From: Prorocentrum cordatum
Lineage: Eukaryota; Sar; Dinophyceae; Prorocentrales; Prorocentraceae
DNA length: 64,000 nucleotides
Assembly (NCBI GenBank): GCA_963575745.1
Contig: CAUYUJ010018063.1
Coordinates: 60,001-124,000, forward strand
Reading direction: 5' to 3'
The notes under the pieces were generated by a model. That model worked only from the letters and a program-made list of their open reading frames with translations. It was not told the DNA's origin and did no database searches. Positions 4,303-61,560 of this stretch are shown here, in pieces. How positions within the stretch are numbered: position 1 is the first letter of the stretch; the number at the start of each line of letters is the position of its first letter. Both the position numbers and the translations under genes were made by a program.

Positions 4303-4816
4303 GAAGGGTCCCAAGTCAGCCCGAAAGGCTCCAGGACGGCCAACACAGAGCAGTCTCTTGGGCTCCAGAGGTGGCTCAGAGGGGGAGAGCCCAAGGGCCC
4401 CTGGAGCCCTCCCCCAGAAGAGGGCCCCCAAGACCCCACACCTGCCCCCTAAATATGCTCCCAATAAGCCCCCACAGGGCCCTCCCCTGGTGCCAGCAGG
4501 AGCCCAGAGAGGGCTCCCACGATGCCGCCCCCGAGGCCTCCAAGAGGCCTCCAAGAAGCCTCGCAACAGACGCGGACGACGAGGAAGACAGATCAACCAC
4601 TACAAGCAGGCAACACGACGGAAACCACAAACAACACACACGACATCGGACACCACACGACGTGTCCTCTTCGGGGCACCCGCGGCGTGGCGCGAGCCTC
4701 TTGAACAATCCCGACCTTGTGTGAAACGTGCAAGGATGGACAGCCGACCCTTTTTCAAAACGGAGCTATGGCTGGACTCTTCCTTGAACTTGTTGGTCCC
4801 CACCTCGCTGCGCGTC
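4303..4816. other. No gene seen
   Basis: GC-rich spacer with short CCTCCAAGAGG-type repeats around 4,530-4,560. Frames crossing it have Arg/Pro-biased composition and no recognisable domain. Confidence 0.5.
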
Positions 4817-46121: not shown

Positions 46122-47116
46122 GACAACAAGAAACGCATACAACAAAGAGAGGCAGGGGGAGGGAGGAGAATGGAAGGACAGAGAGGAGGGGGAGGGAAAG
46201 GAGAGAGGATCACAAGACAGGACAAGGGGGAGGGAGAAGGATGGAAGGGAGGAGGCAGAGGGAACCTTTTCGACTGCTGTCCGAAGCCCCGCGGCCCTGT
46301 TGGCAGAAGCGGGGGCGTATCCCCCCAATCTCCTTTGTCCTCCCCATCCCCCGCCCATCTCGTCTAGATTACAGTCGGACCTAGGCACAAAGAACGTCCT
46401 TCTGAACAATTACCCTCCGCCAGCCAAAACAAACAGAACATCCAAGGGTACCCTCCCCAGGATGCACAAGAGCATCCAACAAACAAAAAGAACGCTAGAA
46501 GATCCTCCTTGAACCGATAGCCATCTTATACGGGGGTGCGACTGTACAAGCTTGAATGAGATGGGGAGGGACACGACACTCACGAGGATAAGGATAAGGA
46601 TGAGCTGGAGAATGCAGATGTTTGGAAAGCGGATTGGGAGGCAGATGATGGGGAGGAGGGCGGCGGACACCCGAGGACCATGAGGAAGAAGCCATGATAA
46701 ACATGTGGAGGCAATAAGCCGATGATGAGGGCCGTACTGGAGCAATCTGAGAAGGACAGAAAAAACATAAGGCGTAAAGCCCGCATGCTGAACTTGTGCC
46801 AACTTCGGAAAACGAGCAAAATTGTCAGTCATACTACAATTGCGACGATGACGCACACCAGACTGATGCCGAACACTGTGGTACGGTGAGGGTATCAGAT
46901 GCAAAACGCTTGAAAACGGTAAGAAACAAGGCACCGAACATGACGGAAACGAATCCGCAACAAGGTGACAACACACTACCTCTTATCGAATATGATGACA
47001 CCACGAATGGACCGTGCAAGCACGAAGAATCGGAAGATGACACGAGGAGGACGAGGAGGGCTAGGAGGAAAAGTAGAGAGGAGGAGGAGGAGGAAAAGGA
47101 GGAGGAAGACGAGGAA
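46119..47116. other. No gene called; sequence upstream of LINE copy 3
   Basis: Purine-rich to 46,260. A frame from 46,796 is Asp/Glu/Lys-rich and runs into a GAGGAGGAG tract before the spliced-leader relic; I see no endonuclease blocks here. Confidence 0.4.
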
Positions 47117-47138
47117 TCCGTAGCCAGTTTGGCTCAAG
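47117..47138 (+). other. Spliced-leader (DinoSL) relic
   Basis: 22 bases matching the dinoflagellate spliced leader at 21 positions: TCCGTAGCCA, then G where the leader has T (position 11), then TTTGGCTCAAG. It is directly followed by LINE coding sequence. In living cells this leader is added to mRNA 5' ends by trans-splicing, so a genomic copy fused to downstream sequence marks reverse transcription of a processed RNA. Confidence 0.9.
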
Positions 47139-49020
47139 CTTGCTCAGGGCATCCAAGAGGCGACTGTTGGAGACCTTTGCGTTGGACCTCCAGCAGGCTA
47201 CTGATGCGAACGACTGCAAACGTCAGTGGCATGTCATGAGAACATTACAGAAGTTTGGGGGACACAAGAAAAACAGCGTTGTGTGGGCTAGGAACAAGAC
47301 ACGACATGGCAGGACAAACAGTTGAGTCACGACAGCAGCTGTCAAGTGCCTTAACTGAGTACTTCGCGAAGCTCGAGATAGGGGACATAATCTCATGGGA
47401 GGAGCTTTGCCAAATGTGCAATGACACCAGATGGCCGCCAAATGACTGCAATGGCCTGAGCAATAACATGGTGATCACCAAGGGAGAACTGCTATATATG
47501 ATAAGAACCCCTGCGGCCAATAAGGCCACTGGGCCTGACAATGTGTCGACGGACCTACTTCGAGTTGCCCCCGAGGAAGCTGCGGATCTGCTCTTGCCCA
47601 TACTCGCCAAAAATCATGTCAACAGGAAGGAACCACTCGGCTTCAAAGGAGGATGGCAGGTTGACCTTTTCAAGAGTGGCCTGACCGCTCCCATCACGAA
47701 CTATCGAGGCATCCTGTTGGGAGTGCATGTAGCCAAACTACATCACAGGTTCCTAAGATCCAGACTGGTGCAGGCATCACAGCACCTTTATCACTGAATA
47801 TCAGATGGGCGGCCTCGCTAAGCGAGGCACAGATATCGCGACACTCATAGTGTACACAGTCGCCAGTGTAGTCAAAGCGCGCAAGGGCACGTTATTGCTA
47901 CTATTCACCGGTCTTAGATCGGCCTTCTACTCAGTTGTCAAAGCATTCCTCTCTCGGTACGCGCAGTTTACCGATGACCTACAGCATACTCTAGACAGCA
48001 TGGAGATCCCAATATCGTTAACCCCGATATGTGACAAGTTGATTGAGGCACCTGGGCTGTTGGACGGACTAGGAGATAATCACCTTCTCACCGCCACAGT
48101 GGACACCATGACGAACACGTGGTTTCAAGTGCAGGGAGCTCGGCAAATAGTCCAGCCACATGGAGGCACCTGACCTGGCATGCCGCTAGCGGATTACTTG
48201 TTTGACAGAGCCTTTTCACCATTACAGTCGAGTATCAACGGGCGTTTGAAGCAGTTAAATTTGTTACCGACAGTTGAGCAACCACAGGTACATCCTCGAG
48301 CCTTTCGGCCACCTGAACCCCCTGTTGAGAGCGCAGTCTGGGGCCCGTCGTACGTCGACGATCTGGTCAGCCTGGCAGAAATCCCCAGGGCCGTCCAGTG
48401 GAAGGAAGCCGCCATCCAACTAGCCAGTGTCGCCCTCGACATGAAATACAAGATCCCATACGCGAGCAAACTATGCATACCACATATGTTGTACAATGCG
48501 TCGACGTCGAATGAGTTAACAGCCAAGCAGAAGGAAATGATCGATAACAATTTCTTCCTGCCGTTCCGTGCAGCAACTGGTTTACGATACAACGGGCAAC
48601 ATGATGATAACATATCTATGGCAAGGCTCATAACGTTCGCACGGCAGCCACCCGCAGCGCGCGTGACCCAGATGAGGAGACTACGACTACTGCATAGAGT
48701 GATTGACGTAGCGCCACCGGCCGTGTTGTCTGTGCTAGACGAGGCAGCGTTGATACCAGGCACATGGGCGAATCTAGTGCGTGAAGACTTGCAATTCGTA
48801 GCTAGCATTGTTACACTCCCAGGCGGGGAACGGCCATATGGTCCGCCAGCATGGTGGATCCAAATGGTTAGGGACCTAGGGTCGAGATTTTGGAAGCGTG
48901 TATGTAGGCAGGCTGAGAGGTTAGAATTTCGTGCCAAACTAGCACAAGCGGCGTTTCAGGCATGGATTGATGAAATCAAGTATTTTTGTAAGTTGCACGG
49001 CCAGGCACTCCCCTCCTTCG
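47139..49020 (+). pseudogene. LINE copy 3 reverse transcriptase, frameshifted
   Basis: Three frames joined: LLRASKRRLLETFALDLQQA (47,142 on), then from about 47,300 ESRQQLSSALTEYF... TPAANKATGPDNVSTDLLRV (RT block 1) and LTAPITNYRGI, then from about 47,780 TEYQMGGLAKRGTDIAT and LLLFTGLRSAFYSVVK, where the usual first-aspartate position reads FTGL. A TGA at 48,171 interrupts what is normally RPGxPLADxLF; PLADYLFDRAFSPLQ follows. The catalytic YVDD is intact at 48,351-48,362. The thumb continues to QAWIDEIKYFCKLHG near 49,000. A 13-C run near 49,026 causes the next frame change. The change in the first aspartate, the stop and the shifts make it inactive. Confidence 0.8.
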
Positions 49021-49054
49021 TGCTGCCCCCCCCCCCCCTACTTGGGCCTGGACG

Positions 49055-50200
49055 TGCGCCGAGTGTGAGCTTGTGTTCACATCCAAGGCCTCCTTGTTGA
49101 GCCATCGCAACAAAGTGCATCCCACACTTGAGGCGGCTAGCAACATTGCGATGGGCTCGTGTTTGCACGACTTTCATTCACGGCTTCGTCTAATCAAGCA
49201 CTTCAGGCACGGTGCTAAAGCGTGCCTAGCCAACTCACTGGCAGTGTTGAAGCCCATCTCTGATGAGATGCTCAGACAGTTCAAAGTAGAGGATGCCCTG
49301 GCCTCGCAACAGCTGAGGAGACAGGGCTACTATGGGGAGAAGGCTTCCCTCCCTCCGATGCCATTTGCTGGACCCAGCTTGGAAGGCGCGGCGCTGGCGC
49401 TAGGGTACGACCCTGTGGCCCCGTCGTCTTATGTCAGGCCTCTCGTCTTGGAAGTTGAGCCGCCCCAGGCCATCTTTTGCGCACCTGCACAAGGCGCACC
49501 ATGCTTCATAGTGCACGTTGGTGTCGATGCTGTGCGCTCGCATTGTGATTTCCAAGCGCGCCTTGAAGCTCGTGCGGCAGCTGCGGGACGGACACTCGTT
49601 GTATTGCAGGTCTCGCAACGTCAGGCCGCATCGTACCAGGACCGCTGTCTGCTCGTCAGTCTCATTTTTCAGGGCAGGGTGGCCGCGACCGTGGCCGTCC
49701 CACCAGCTCAGACATGGGTGCAATGTCAAGACCCAACCCCCAAGCCTACCAGAACACTCGACTGGCCATGGGGATCGCCGCATGTGAAGGAGAAGGGGCA
49801 AGAGTTACTCCAGACGGAGAACTCCATGCTCCTGCTAGTAGTAACGCTCGTTTATTTCGCCAACGCCTGTCAATTATCATGTTGCTTGTGCTTTCCTCGC
49901 GTGCGTGTGTCATGTTACTCACCCTCTCCTTGGGAAATCCCCGAGGTGCGTGAATGCTTGACCTATACCAGGAAGACCAGGTGTGTCTCAGGCGGATCGA
50001 GTTTTACGTTTCATTCTGCATACATGCCAGGGTTCCCAGAAGACGGAGCCGTCGAGTGCGTGTATGAATTTCTTGTTGAGACAATCGTTGACGCTATTGC
50101 GTTTGCACAAGGCGGCGATGTGCGCGACGAACCGCCCTCGGATGTGCTCGCACGTTTTTACGTGCCCCTTGACCCATATGGGTCGGTGGATGAGCCCTGA
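49055..50200 (+). CDS. LINE copy 3 C-terminal region with C2H2 zinc finger, open frame
   Basis: One uninterrupted frame of about 380 codons. CAECELVFTSKASLLSHRNK then VH gives a C-x2-C-x12-H-x4-H finger. A second finger-like unit, CLHDFHSRLRLIKHFRHG, has lost its first cysteine. Then FIVHVGVDAVRSHCDFQARL and LLVVTLVYFANACQLS match the order of a conserved C-terminal region I associate with dinoflagellate LINE proteins. Stop at 50,198-50,200. The zinc fingers probably bind template nucleic acid. There is no own start codon in context; it is the end of the polyprotein after the C-run frameshift. Confidence 0.7.
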   Translation, partial: CAECELVFTSKASLLSHRNKVHPTLEAASNIAMGSCLHDFHSRLRLIKHFRHGAKACLANSLAVLKPISDEMLRQFKVEDALASQQLRRQGYYGEKASLPPMPFAGPSLEGAALALGYDPVAPSSYVRPLVLEVEPPQAIFCAPAQGAPCFIVHVGVDAVRSHCDFQARLEARAAAAGRTLVVLQVSQRQAASYQDRCLLVSLIFQGRVAATVAVPPAQTWVQCQDPTPKPTRTLDWPWGSPHVKEKGQELLQTENSMLLLVVTLVYFANACQLSCCLCFPRVRVSCYSPSPWEIPEVRECLTYTRKTRCVSGGSSFTFHSAYMPGFPEDGAVECVYEFLVETIVDAIAFAQGGDVRDEPPSDVLARFYVPLDPYGSVDEP

Positions 50201-51344
50201 GGATGCTGTACCAGGCCTCCCGTGCTCGGTCTCTCTTTCTTGTGCATGTATGTTCGCTACGACTCATGGTCTTCAGGTCTGTTCGCAGGAGGACGAGGAG
50301 GAGGACAAGCCAACGTGATGAACGCTGCGCTCTAGTGTGTCGCGGCTGCTTTTCCGCCCCCCCGCCATAGCCTCTCGAAGAACAGGTCCTCCGAGGGGGG
50401 AGGGGAGATGGGGAGGAGGGGGGGAGGAGGAGGAGGAGGAGGAGGAGGAGGAGGAGGGAGAGGAGGAGGAGGAGGAGATGAGGATGAGAGGAAGAGGGAG
50501 AGGAGAGAAGGAGGAGGAAAGAGGGAGGAGAGGATGGGAGAGGAGGAGGAGGAGAAGAAGAGGAGGAGGAGGAAGAGGAGGAGGATGAGGATGAGGAGGA
50601 GGAGGAAGAGGATTGGGAGGAGGGGGCGGGGGCGGCGCCTGCAACGCCTGCGCCGCTGGGTCCAGCGGCGCGTCCTCGGCGGGGGGCACTGGGGGCTCGA
50701 TGAGGAGGGCGACCAGGCGACAGAGAGCGAGGAATGCTGAGCTGAACGAGGACGACGACGACGAAAAGGACCACGAGGATGAGGCAGAGGTGGACGAGGA
50801 GGATGAGAAACACGAGGTGGAAGGGAAGGTCGGGAGGATGAGGCAGAGGTGGACGATGAGGGAGACTCGAGGGAGAAGATTCTGATAATGAGGTGGAGAC
50901 AGAAGCGGTTGACGAGGACGGGGGCAAAAAGGATGAGGACGAAATGAAGGACCACGGAACCACCACAACAACGCACACGCACCACTGACACTGCAACACG
51001 CCCTTCTTTGGGGTGGTTCCGAGATGTCGCGGGCCGCTTGGATGGCCCGCTGAGGGCGTTCGCTGACGATCTGGGGCGGCCCCAAGGCGGTCCCGGGCCC
51101 TGCCCGTGCCCCGGGAAACGCATTCGTGGTAAAGGTCCCGGCCCCCGGCCCCCGGGGCTCGGTGGGTCGCTATGTGTGCGTGTGTATAAATATCGTGATT
51201 CATGCAGAAAGCGCGCCGCAAGCGAGAACAGACACCGTGTCATCTATGTGGTGCACTCCCCTTTGACCGTCTTGAAGCTGTCCTCTCCACTGCTCGTGCA
51301 AACATCCCACCCTCCCACCCGCAACTTGGTTTGCAAAACCTTTT
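50201..51344 (+). repeat. Spacer with (GGA)n
   Basis: GGA triplets 50,398-50,630, then CGACGAC/GAGGATGAG mixtures to 50,940. Repeat D copy 2 at about 51,270-51,345. No gene recognised. Confidence 0.8.
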
Positions 51345-51889: not shown

Positions 51890-54480
51890 GTTGAAAATCC
51901 GTGTTGCGAAACCTTGGGTTTTTGTAGGTTTTTTTGGACGCGCGATTTCGAAATCCTTCCGAAACCGACAGGTTTTGAAGGATTTCGGCGTACGCGCGCG
52001 CCGTCGCGCGCGTCAGCACTTCGTCTCATTTTTGGAAGAGAATTCTCGCGACGGCACACGCGCAAGGGCGTTCGACAGATTTCGACATGCGCGCGCGACG
52101 CCCGTTTGGTAGCAGTTTGTGAAGATCTTGAAAAACCCATGGTTTTCTTCAGATTTCGCCAGAGCTCGCGCGGAATATTTTTTAGCAAATCAGTGTTGCG
52201 AAATTCTGTGTTTTTGAATGTTTTTTGGAAGCGCGATTGCGAAATCCTTCCGGCACCGAAGGTTTTTGAAGGATTTCGGCATGCGCGCGCGACGACGCGC
52301 GCGTGCGCACTTCGTCCCATTTTCTGCAAGGGATTCGTGAAACAAGTGTTTTGTTCGAACAACAAATGTCACCGCATTGTGTTTTTTTACAAAGGAACCT
52401 CTGGGGGGGATACCGGTTTGGCTGGGATGATATGATTTCATATTTAGGATGAACGAGTGTGCAGAGTACACATATATATATATATATATATATATAGAGA
52501 TGAGACTATACTACCCCAGGGAGAAGCGTTAAGTCTGGGGGGGGTATAATCTATTCTCTTCTTAGAAAAAGGAGAATATATTTGGTGGATGTTATTGTAA
52601 ATCGCAATGAAATTTGAGCCCCACGATTCGCGCTATCATCCCAGCCACCCACCCGCAACTTGGCGTGCAAAGTGCATGCGGTGGCGATTGCGACGAGGTT
52701 TTGGCGTTGGCTGGTCCATCTCTGCGGCCGCGCCAACCCAAGCACGCGCGCGCAGCGGCCAGCTACTTTGGCGCAGCCGACGCGGCCGCGGTGGCGCTGA
52801 CCGTTGGGCACATCCCAGCGGTTGAGAAACTTGAAACCTATGGCTTCTCCAAAGAATCCGCTAAAGCGCAATCGGAGGCTATTTTGAAAACGGATGCTGC
52901 GAAACTCTGTGATTTTTTGCATGTGTTAGGACACTCGGTTTCGAAACCGTTCCGGAACCTACGTATTATGATGGATTTCGGCACGCGCGCGTGCACTTCG
53001 TCCCGTTTTGCGCAGAGGATTCTAGCAACGGCGCGCGCGCAAGTCGTTCGAACGATTTCGGCATGCGCGCGCGAAGCCCGTTTGGTAGCATTTTCTCAAA
53101 ATGATGAATAACCTGTGGTTGTCTCAAGAATTCGCAAGGGAACGCGCGCAAGTGATTGATTTTAAATCCGTGTTGCGAAACCATGTGTTCTCTAATGTTT
53201 TCGTGCGCTCGGCTTTGAAGTCCTTGCCGAACCGACGGTTTTTGAAGGATTTCGGTGCGCGCGCGACAGCGCGCGCGTGCACATCGTCTCATCTGTTCAA
53301 AAAAATTGTTGAAAACTGATAATTTGTTGGAAACGAGTGCGCGCATAGAATTCGTCGCAGAAGATGGCGGGGGGGGGAGGCGATGTAGGCCCCCCCCTGG
53401 GATGGTGTAAATTTTGGGTTCGGATTGACGACGGAGCAGAATAATGTAGACTGCAAGTCGACACGGGGGGCGGATAGTCCCGGGGGTGGGGGGCGGATCT
53501 ATTCTCTTCTCAGAAAACAAATCAATGTCCTTTTCTAAACCTGCGCGGTGCATTTGGCATTGCGCAATATACGCTGTGCCCTCTAATTGGTGAAATCTAC
53601 GCCGCGCAATTCACCCCCGCCCACCCGCCCGAAACTTGGTTTGCTAAATCCATGCGGCGGCGACTGCGATGAATGCTTCGCGTTGGCCGGGGCATCTCTG
53701 CGGCCGCGCTGAACCGCGCATGCCCGCGCGCGCAGCGGCCGGATGGTTTGGCGCGACCGACGCGGCAGCGGTGGCGCTGACCGGTGGGCACCGCCCAACG
53801 GGCACTTCAGTGCGAGTCGGCGGCTGGGGCGAGCGCGGCATCGTGGCAACATCGACAATGGTGGACGCGGTGATGGTAGCGACGCCGGTGCGAAGGGTGA
53901 CAAAGACGACGGCAAAGCCAATGGCGGCACCGATGCTGATCGCGCCAACGACGATGGCGGTGTCTCCGCGTCGTCGTTGAGGGATCTGGAAATACTTCGA
54001 CATGCGCGCGCGGTCGACGCGCGAGACTGGACCGCGCCGCATCATGCGACGCGGATCATGCGACGCGGATCGTGCCCCAGCACGCGCGCAAGGGCGCCCG
54101 AATGAGTTTCACATTCGCGCGTGGGGGGCTCGCGCGACCGAATTGAATTAACATGTTGCAAATCCATTGCTTCCTTGAGAATTCGCAAGAGCGCGAGCGC
54201 ATATTTTTCTTCGGACTGATGTTGCAAGACAAGACACTTCAATATAGTTACAGGACACTCTCGATTTTGAGATATTCACGGACTCCCGCGGTGTCTAGGA
54301 ACGGATTTCGGCACGCGCGCGCGACGACGCGGGCGCGTGCAGTTCGTCGGGGTTCTTGCGGCAGCACGCTCGCAATGGCGCGCGAGCGATTCCGACGTGC
54401 GCGCGCGAGAGGCCTTTTTGGTAGCATGCCATGAACATGTCGAATCACCTGTGGTTCTTCAGCAGGCGCGACTGTTGTCT
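51890..54480 (+). repeat. ~300-bp repeat module (GTGTTGCGAAAC ... TTTCGGCATGCGCGCG), several copies alternating with repeat D
   Basis: GTGTTGCGAAA.T at about 51,898, 52,193, 52,893 and 53,171, each followed by GCGCGAT..CGAAATCCTTCC, TTTTTGAAGGATTTCGGC and a CGCGCGCG palindrome, then ACTTCGTC. Repeat D occurs at 52,612-52,830 and 53,590-53,805, after TATTCTCTTCT(T/C)AGAAAA. (TA)n runs at 52,472-52,494 and 54,602-54,620. Confidence 0.8.
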
Positions 54481-57110: not shown

Positions 57111-57132
57111 TCCCTAGCCATTTTGGATAAAG
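57111..57132 (+). other. Probable decayed spliced-leader relic
   Basis: TCCCTAGCCATTTTGG then ATAAAG; matches the leader at 19 of 22 positions, including an intact TAGCCATTTTGG. It lies 45 bases upstream of the ATG at 57,178. Confidence 0.6.
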
Positions 57133-57177
57133 GTTGCGGCAGGCCCCCACGGACGCGGTCGGGCTCTCCTCTCGCCA

Positions 57178-58235
57178 TGGGGCGCGCGAGAGATGGCATC
57201 ACGGTGCTCTACGACCCCTCGGTGGCCCTCCTCCGCGATGTACAGGAAGCGGCGTGCTTCATGCAGCTGCTCAGTGGCGGGTGCTCGCACTGCGACCCGA
57301 ACACGGACGTCGAGGCTATCTTGCACTCGGCGGGCGCGACCCTTGGGCTCGGCACCACGGCCAGCTCCGAGGACACTCGGCAAGGGCTGCGACTTCGGGG
57401 ACGTGTGGACCTGTCCAAGGAGTGGGCGACCGCGCGTCAAGGGCGGCGAGCGGCGGCGCATCGGGACGGCCGCCTGGAGCAGCGTGCGCTCGCGGCGTTG
57501 GCTACCCCGCCGCGCCGCCTCGACCGGGCGGTCCAGGAGAAGCAGAAAGATACGGATCCGTACGACAACGTCCGCACAGTGGCGGAGGAGAAAATCGGTT
57601 TCGACGCCTACGTCGAAGACCTGTCCAGCGTGGACAGCACGGGGCCGAATGAAGGCGCCTTGTGCGAGAAGCCGGTCACGTCTAACATGGACCTCTTCCT
57701 GACCTTGGAGAAGATGCAGCAGCAGATCGACGTGCTGAAGGATGTGCAGGAGTCCCTGGCGCGGAAGTCCACCGTGGAGGCCGAAGAGCAGGCCTGGCAT
57801 GTCCAGACCTCGCAGGAAAACAAGATGGTGGAGAGCGTCGCGGACGGCACAGACACCATCACGTACACCTCCACGGACGCATGTTCTGATGAGGCCACGG
57901 CGGCCGCCCAGGAGCTCGAGAAGGTGCTTCAGGTCGAGGACAGTGCGAAGAGTACCGAGAAGGAGACCGAGGATATAGCCAAGGAGGAGAAGAAGCAGGC
58001 CGATGCGACTAAGCAGTCCGAGGAGAGGCCTGTGGCGCGGGAATACCCCCTCGGTGAATGCTCCACCATGTGCAAAACACCCTCCGCTCCGCCCTCTGCT
58101 GCAAAACGAACTCGGAACGGCAACTGGCCACGAGATCGCCAAAACACCGGCTGGCTCGAGGCCTGGGCCCCGTCGTTGAAGCAGGAGCGCCCAGAATCGA
58201 ATCGGATCGATCGGTCGGATCAACGAGAAACGTGA
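57178..58235 (+). CDS. Intronless ORF, acidic coiled-coil protein of unknown function (candidate retrogene)
   Basis: 352-codon frame from ATG 57,178 (MGRARDGITVLYDPSVALLR) to TGA 58,235. The first 70 residues hold a predicted globular part with SGGCSHCDPN. Residues about 150-300 are hydrophilic and heptad-patterned (LEKMQQQIDVLKDVQESLAR; EKETEDIAKEEKKQADA). The last 50 residues, from about 58,060, change composition and run into ATCGGATCGG repeats, so the true C-terminus may be earlier or an exon end. The start is supported by the leader-like sequence just upstream, which would be the old mRNA 5' end. A longer open frame on the opposite strand (58,550-57,114) is Leu/Arg-rich and taken as a shadow. 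No family recognised. Confidence 0.55.
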
Positions 58236-59980: not shown

Positions 59981-60889
59981 CCAACGAGGTGGCTCATCGG
60001 CGGGAGTCAGTTCAGATGGGGCCCATCGCGCCCGAACCTTGCAATTAGCGGTTATCAAGAGGGCTGCAAATCGTCTACAATCTTTGAGTTTAGCATCGCA
60101 GGCCCATCTCTTTGAAAAAGCCTGGGTCACGCTCATAATATCACATCGATACGCGCGACGTCGACAATGATGACGCTGATCCTTGGACTGACGCTGGAGA
60201 ACAGAAATAACCGCCGTCACCTCTAGAATGCGACTAGGTTCTTCCCGAATAAAACGCCCCAGATACAACGGGCGCCGTTGAGCATTTCTCACATGATCAG
60301 AGGGCGCCTCAGGGAAATCAGGATCGACTTCCCGTTCTTCCGGTTGAACTGTTCCTCGGGGTACCCTAACAGTGAAGTGGTCCGAAAGGGCATCTCGAAC
60401 GCCGGCTTCTAGGCCGCGCCTGGCACGAGGTCGGGGGCGAGAGACCCTGGGCACTTCTGGACAACGGAAGCGTTGTCTCCTGTCGCGACGTCCGCACCCC
60501 TTCGCAAAATCACGATCCGCGTCAGCTGCCACGGCCCCTACCCCATTCAAGCAGGCGCCAGTAGCTATCGCCGGCCGGCCCCGCGCAAGGCCCCAGGACG
60601 ACCCGGCGAGCAAGAGGGGGCCCTGACAGGCATCTAGTTCTTTTGCAGCGGACCCCCGCAGAGACGCATCCCGAACTCCGCCCGCGCGCGCAGACTGGCA
60701 GCGAGACATCAGCGCTGACGGCACAGGCCCCCCAAGCATGAATGCGAGGGCGAGGTGCCCGATGAGCTCCCCCATGCTCTTCGGAAAGAGAGAGCCAGCG
60801 CCCAACTGATACGCAAATCCAAGCGCCGGAATCTCTTGCGGCGCGGGCCGCTGAGCGGCCCCCGTCCTGCATCGCCCCAAGATCGACAC
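59981..60889 (-). pseudogene. DIRS-like element: RT end and RNase H domain
   Basis: One open minus-strand frame. MGELIGHLALAFML (about 60,775) matches the GHLTFxFLL block that follows the RT in DIRS-type elements. From 60,229: ILEVTAVISVLQRQ, CDIMSVTQAFSK, AALLITANCKVRARW, APSELTPADEPPR. The order ILExxA...CDNxSVxxAxSK...RWxPSExNPAD is the RNase H signature of these elements, with Asn changed to Ile in the CDN block. The frame continues into the N gap. No tyrosine recombinase motif is seen beyond it. Confidence 0.7.
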
Positions 60890-61560
60890 TCTGCGGGTCG
60901 GTCTGCTCGTCGTCGCGCGCGCCGAGGCCTGCGCCGTTCAACGTCTCGAAGACCTCGTCGGCGAGCCGCTGAACATGTCCCATGCTGCCGCCGAGCGCCC
61001 CGACGTTGCCGACGTAGATGTAGTGCACAGTGTAAAGAGTGCTTTGGAGAAGCTGCCCCACGCCGAGATTACGCAGCCGACTTGAGGGCTTCAGACCAGG
61101 CACCCTCTCAACCAGCCCTCGCTTGGCCACTCGCGCAACATAGAGGCGCCACTTGAAACCCACTGGCAGCGCAACGAAACGGAGATGAACCCAGTCCGCC
61201 GCCAGCCCAGTGTCGCGAGTTCGAATTGTAAGCGGGCGAACATATCGGCTCGGATCCTCATCGGCCCTGAACCTGGAGAAACAGTCCTGCGCGTCCGTTG
61301 AAAGCGGCGCGCGCCGCGAGGTCACCCGGCCCCATCCAGCTCGCCGAAAGATTCACGCGTTGCGAGGCTCGCAGAGGGTGGATCGTGAAAGCGGCGCTTC
61401 GCACAACGGGCGTCCGCTATCAGGCGCTGACGTCGACCCTTCTTTTTCACATAGAAGCAGGCGACCCTCTCCATCGCATCGCGGCACCATCGCACGACGC
61501 CCTCCTCGACGAGCTGCCAGTAAAAGGTGGTGCACAGGCCAGCATCTGACCTCAGGCGCA
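60890..61560 (-). pseudogene. DIRS-like element: reverse transcriptase core, active site altered
   Basis: Two frames. The upstream one ends ACFYVKKKGRRQRLIADARC then AKRRFHDPP (RT blocks 1-2, about 61,465-61,360). The next reads LSTDAQDCFSRF (first aspartate block, 61,298) , FVALPVGFKWRLYVA and HYIYVGNVGALGG. The active-site tetrad YVDN/YVDD reads YVGN at 61,016-61,005, one base away from aspartate. A frame change near 61,325 separates the blocks. Confidence 0.75.

Follow-up and report, generated by a model that had tools for sequence, protein, structure and literature searches.

The dinoflagellate 22-nt spliced leader, DinoSL, has the sequence DCCGTAGCCATTTTGGCTCAAG (PMC12014239, PMC7245778). 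Leader-tagged retrogenes are already known from dinoflagellates, and trans-splicing has been proposed as the origin of some mammalian LINE-1 chimeras. Neighboring systems include the SpIREs, which are spliced integrated copies of LINE-1 (PMC5860796), and the endogenous copies of dinoRNAV, for 6 of whose 26 RdRp ORFs a DinoSL relic was found no more than 500 bp away (PMC10235124). In PMC6050394, retroposition is tied to 'RNA-dependent DNA replication' genes, so leader-tagged reverse transcriptase copies may already sit, unrecognized as such, in published gene lists. A search of part of the open literature, with key papers lying outside it, found no report of a LINE copy headed by the leader. 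The copy described here, a single locus, is plausibly new in this respect.

Leader relics in the window

The window, i.e., the whole 64,000-nucleotide stretch of DNA that was analysed, contains two sites resembling DinoSL:

47117-47138, + strand: DinoSL relic TCCGTAGCCAGTTTGGCTCAAG, identical to the spliced leader at 21 of 22 bases
57111-57132, + strand: second leader relic TCCCTAGCCATTTTGGATAAAG, differing from DinoSL at 3 positions and bordering a pyrimidine (TCC) tract
57177-58235, + strand: intronless ORF of 352 aa, its ATG 44 bases after the second relic

A preliminary description, made from the sequence alone, had reported a 22-base leader with a single mismatch at position 11, and this was borne out exactly, leader position 11 being the sole difference between DinoSL and the relic at 47117-47138. 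With up to 3 mismatches allowed, the window holds 2 leader-like sites and 100 dinucleotide shuffles of it hold 0; with up to 5 allowed, the same two sites are still the only ones across the window. For sites with at most one mismatch on both strands, composition models of order 0 to 3 give an expectation of 1.6e-7 to 5.0e-7 per window, and equal base use gives 4.9e-7, so the earlier estimate of 2 in a million was conservative. The leader relic at 47117-47138 is real, and it is the leader that points to a dinoflagellate as the apparent source of this DNA.

All 22 leader bases are present, on the same strand as the reverse transcriptase described below, and the relic ends in CAAG followed directly by CTTGC, as the first bases of CTTGCTCAGG. 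An SL-RNA-like gene provides the relevant comparison: in a contig of a metagenome-assembled genome (L003, of which 2152 of 5151 bases were read, giving this one gene), an exact DinoSL runs into GTACGCAACC, i.e., into GTACG, with GT as in a splice donor. As the window's leader is followed by CTTGCTCAGG and not by the GT-headed intron of an SL RNA, the leader most likely reached this locus already spliced to another RNA. The relic is thus of the mature form and makes up the copy's 5' end, as in retrocopies headed by DinoSL relics.

The second relic and its ORF form a candidate ordinary retrogene (57111-58235), by analogy with the known dinoflagellate pattern; the 352-aa ORF gave two Pfam matches, both below the cut-off. 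Further downstream, a 276-aa ORF on the minus strand (60522-61352) carries HYIYVGNVGALGG, which we take to resemble the catalytic part of a reverse transcriptase of a different kind.

Scans for the leader elsewhere returned one viral contig, the same in two scans, and two genome contigs. The viral one (L001, IMGVR_UViG_3300045993_001077) is an AT-rich IMG/VR contig in which an exact DinoSL heads a GC-richer block at 1936-2766 on the minus strand; a 254-aa ORF opens 45 bases after this leader, and a second exact leader lies at 2893-2913. On our reading the contig is giant-virus-like, and the block looks like either a dinoflagellate cDNA that carried the leader and was retrocopied into the genome of a virus, or a chimeric assembly. 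The two genome contigs belong to Dehalococcoidia metagenome-assembled genomes and carry exact DinoSL at 32-52 on the + strand (L002) and at 4334-4354 on the minus strand (L003). At the contig end of L002 a TCA repeat precedes the leader, and L003 has apparent eukaryotic, alveolate-like rDNA with the SL-RNA-like gene in its spacer. Both are probably eukaryotic DNA within bacterial assemblies.

The reverse transcriptase and the edges of the copy

The region around the relic at 47117-47138 contains the following features:

47062-47116 (to 47117 under a 38-of-40 rule), no strand assigned: GGA-rich purine tract abutting the relic start, candidate insertion site on the 5' side
47139-47335, + strand: stretch between relic and reverse transcriptase, LLRASKRRLLETFALDLQQATDANDCKRQWHVMRTLQKFGGHKK, with one frame open at 47140-47325
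47336-47785, + strand: reverse transcriptase, N-terminal portion, containing KATGPDNV (47522-47545) and NYRGILL (47699-47719)
47790-49019, + strand: remaining reverse transcriptase, including a presumed thumb-like region
47808-47831, + strand: GGLAKRGT, within the reverse transcriptase
47895-47936, + strand: presumed reverse transcriptase motif A, LLLFTGLRSAFYSV
48171-48173, + strand: in-frame stop in the reverse transcriptase
48174-48194, + strand: presumed motif B region, PGMPLAD
48351-48362, + strand: YVDD, in the reverse transcriptase
48992-50200, + strand: C-terminal ORF of 402 aa, the whole of which is assigned to the LINE by assumption
49055-49120, + strand: weak C2H2 zinc finger CAECELVFTSKASLLSHRNKVH (zf-C2H2, E 0.0038, below cut-off)
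50392-50612, no strand assigned: next downstream purine tract, which with 47062-47116 flanks about 3.3 kb

Five + strand ORF pieces (47077-47325, 47240-47797, 47757-48173, 48174-49100 and 48992-50200) are a broken reverse transcriptase plus its C-terminal part. When the frames are joined, KATGPDNV, NYRGILL, GGLAKRGT, motif A, the motif B region and YVDD fall at positions 112, 171, 206, 235, 324 and 386 of the product, in what we take to be the expected order, the motif names and the thumb label being our own assignments. Scanned singly against Pfam, the ORF pieces matched no reverse transcriptase family, and the joined product matched RVT_1 with an E of 0.068, below the cut-off. Against PDB at E up to 10, a 468-residue joined product retrieved six matches, every one a reverse transcriptase: R2 (E 0.022), an entry named 'RNA-directed DNA polymerase' (0.41) and four LINE-1 ORF2 entries (0.45 to 1.1). 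Five of the six are thus named R2 or LINE-1, and as the four LINE-1 entries are versions of one protein, the six amount to about two independent families. An earlier joined version of 419 residues, searched with a limit of E 1, retrieved R2 alone (E 0.018), and the reversed 468-residue product, used as a control, retrieved nothing from PDB. Single matches are weak and not independent (PDB E 0.022-1.1), and it is the combined evidence that identifies a non-LTR reverse transcriptase with ordered motifs. Judged by its sequence, a decayed non-LTR, i.e., LINE-type, reverse transcriptase sits 3' of the relic on the same strand, as the preliminary description had proposed. AlphaFold2 models of two pieces of the window were too poor to use (mean pLDDT 40.1 and 40.5) and were left out of the evidence.

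The copy has three frame breaks in addition to the stop at 48171-48173 and is therefore dead. As a rough inference, this damage, with a single altered base among the 22 of the leader and four breaks over about 1,000 codons, is compatible with a single event of moderate age. No second copy of the LINE was found within the window. In viral contigs, one ORF used as query gave 2 pattern matches and 0 relatives, and a reverse transcriptase motif pattern gave 0 matches; in genome contigs, the joined reverse transcriptase gave 11 pattern matches and 0 relatives. These searches use exact short peptides and detect close relatives only.

The point at which LINE sequence begins can be placed only approximately. 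The preliminary description had LINE coding sequence starting at the very next base after the leader, and a frame is indeed open from 47140, yet the homology detected by the search tools begins only at about 47,266 (LINE-1) or 47,468 (R2), some 130 bases or more after the relic. The LINE-1 alignment opens at query residue 45 (about 47,266), facing residue 401 of the 1275 of ORF2p; this start lies 5 residues before an artificial join, which makes 47,336 the safer beginning of homology. The R2 alignment opens near 47,468. The letters of 47139-47335 look to us like a LINE pre-RT linker. With the LINE-1 alignment starting at residue 401, some 355 residues of the ORF2p N-terminus are without a counterpart downstream of the relic; R2 has about 265 further residues upstream of its aligned point. 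Beyond the relic, the first ATGs of the three frames open only 12, 29 and 11 aa. As far as sequence comparison can tell, the usual LINE N-terminal sequence is absent between relic and reverse transcriptase.

LINEs carry either an N-terminal endonuclease of the APE type or a C-terminal one of the RLE type. Pfam detected no endonuclease family in 9 chosen upstream ORFs on both strands (including 46778-47236), where some repeat-driven matches fell below the cut-off, and neither Pfam nor PDB detected one in the C-terminal ORF; a decayed or divergent domain could escape either scan. The endonuclease half may be missing upstream, as the preliminary description had it, and such an absence would be expected of a truncated copy. 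The same Pfam scan, a weak test on decayed sequence, gave no support for LINE homology upstream of 47,117.

With purine tracts on both sides, the LINE copy may have split one tract, but the window has 37 such tracts totalling 3172 bases. The best candidate for a target-site duplication has 2 mismatches in 20 and lies inside simple purine repeat, so that nothing convincing was found; there is no A-run of at least 6 in 49901-50700, and no intron is evident in the copy. GC is 0.505 in the 1 kb upstream versus 0.520-0.521 in the reverse transcriptase region, with 0.605 for the whole window, and this shared low GC would also fit an older unit extending upstream of the relic. Low GC occurs elsewhere as well (0.502 at 52001-53000).

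Insertion directed by such tracts at both relics was considered and is not claimed: the test was post hoc, the distances vary by rule, and the tract is of purines at the first relic and of pyrimidines at the second. By the 38-of-40 rule, both relics start no more than 10 bases from the right end of a tract, and the first alone no more than 3; positions this close, at up to 10 bases, make up 1.2% for each relic (squared, 1.5e-4). Four other rules give distances of 1, 7, 4 and 1 for the first relic and 9, 5, 15 and 14 for the second.

How leader and LINE may have been joined

We consider it probable that the locus is a retrocopy of the RNA of a LINE (non-LTR retrotransposon) that had gained DinoSL. 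The LINE would have been transcribed, alone or through read-through, and host SL trans-splicing would then have added the 22-nt leader at an AG acceptor located shortly before the pre-RT linker; everything 5' of the acceptor would have been lost from the RNA, together with any N-terminal endonuclease or DNA-binding region. In a longer parent element, the acceptor AG would directly precede CTTGCTCAGGG. A reverse transcriptase, probably a LINE's, would have copied the RNA to its 5' end, and the product would have been inserted, perhaps as a single event, at the GGA-rich purine tract; decay would then have produced the one leader mismatch, the three frame breaks and the stop. The preliminary description had likewise proposed a LINE RNA that was trans-spliced, reverse transcribed and inserted here. 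Of that proposal, addition of the leader before reverse transcription best explains a mature-form leader 5' of a LINE reverse transcriptase copy; the acceptor AG may have been internal to a full-length LINE, and trans-splicing may have caused the truncation and may shape LINE offspring in this genome. Leader-headed retrocopies, a known dinoflagellate pattern, lend this reading support by analogy (PMC6050394, PMC12014239, PMC7245778), as does the second candidate in the window. The locus suggests that LINE RNA received the leader, and was perhaps shortened, ahead of reverse transcription.

An unlikely alternative, though one to be taken seriously, is that mRNAs of this LINE family normally begin with the leader, the reverse transcriptase frame having its own trans-spliced message from a separate cistron or a short element, so that splicing truncated nothing. 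According to PMC6050394 and PMC12014239, the nuclear mRNAs of dinoflagellates receive the leader in all or almost all cases, and an ordinary LINE mRNA might therefore bear it too; no full-length relative was found that would show a longer ORF. On the other hand, the proteins of LINE-1 and R2 extend about 355 and 265 residues further upstream, and the short ORFs opened by the first ATGs after the relic are not what a regular 5' end would lead one to expect, a weak point given the decay. Surveys also disagree on how general the leader is: among full-length transcripts of Polarella, 13.54% and 50.39% were found to bear it (PMC7245778), and among those of Prorocentrum 4.95%, in each case with technical caveats from the authors.

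Quite improbable, in our view, is template switching, in which the reverse transcriptase left the LINE RNA and continued on the 5' portion of a different leader-capped RNA. It is viable because the 130-200 bases after the relic have no assignment and, lacking tool-detected LINE homology, could come from another mRNA. Against it, the frame at 47140-47325 is open and its letters look to us like those of a LINE linker. The product would be comparable to the U6/LINE-1 chimeras of mammals, for which template switching is one of two mechanisms that have been put forward (PMC13174262).

We hold it very improbable that two events are superimposed, i.e., that the end of an older leader-tagged retrogene was joined by a later, ordinary 5'-truncated LINE landing beside it. 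Truncation at the 5' end is common in LINEs, and with the LINE edge being approximate, up to about 200 bases of the older retrogene could intervene. However, if the 47140 frame is LINE sequence, the insertion would have had to land precisely where the leader ends, and facing the same way. Leader relics are abundant in such genomes, retrogenes making up 22.3 and 23.2% of the genes of two Symbiodinium species (PMC6050394).

That a retroposed SL RNA, snRNA-like, was fused to the LINE has next to no probability and is rejected: snRNA/LINE-1 chimeras do occur in mammals (PMC13174262), but an SL-RNA copy would run into the GT intron, as in the one gene of L003, and the window has CTTGC in place of GTACG. 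Equally close to nil is a chance match or ordinary internal LINE sequence, since, even though no LINE relative was found that could speak directly against internal sequence, the 0 sites in 100 shuffles and the expectation given above lead us to reject chance.

A wider proposal, which we regard as distinctly unlikely, is that SL trans-splicing acts as a brake on LINEs: leaders would be added at internal acceptors, many offspring would be leader-headed and without N-terminal domains, dead copies would gain cap or promoter potential, and GGA/TCC tracts would be favored as landing sites.

Significance and known systems

If leader-headed LINE copies recur, the leader would be a base-exact mark of LINE RNA processing. 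Recurrence would also bear on which reverse transcriptase makes dinoflagellate retrogenes, as LINE RNA would be caught in the leader-tagged pathway; PMC6050394 favors LTR elements as the source of that enzyme. A host RNA-processing step would moreover be shown to disarm transposons.

The primary papers on retrogenes with DinoSL relics are those of Slamovits and Keeling (2008) and Song et al. (2017). SpIREs reportedly resemble the present case in that splicing of LINE RNA yields defective offspring, and reportedly differ in that the splicing takes place within the LINE RNA, whereas the splice proposed here would attach a leader in trans. The DinoSL-relic retrogenes share with this locus a genomic RNA copy headed by a leader relic (PMC6050394); here, in contrast, the retroposed RNA would be the retrotransposon's own, and the leader stands beside an N-terminally shortened ORF. 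Endogenous dinoRNAV copies likewise have DinoSL relics near retrocopies of something other than host genes, with LINEs as the suspected machinery, the difference being that the retrocopied sequence there is of an RNA virus and here would be the LINE's own RNA (PMC10235124). The trypanosomatid elements L1Tc and ingi are also LINEs living in genomes with SL trans-splicing, but their Pr77 promoter is described as giving abundant unspliced, translatable transcripts, so that the leader is avoided (PMC8190864). In the mammalian chimeras of LINE-1 and mRNA exons (PMC13174262, Cell Genomics 2026), as here, foreign RNA lies 5' of the LINE and trans-splicing is proposed to precede reverse transcription. 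The donors there are ordinary gene exons, whereas the donor here would be a dedicated spliced leader, and with such a donor the event need not be rare and could be routine.
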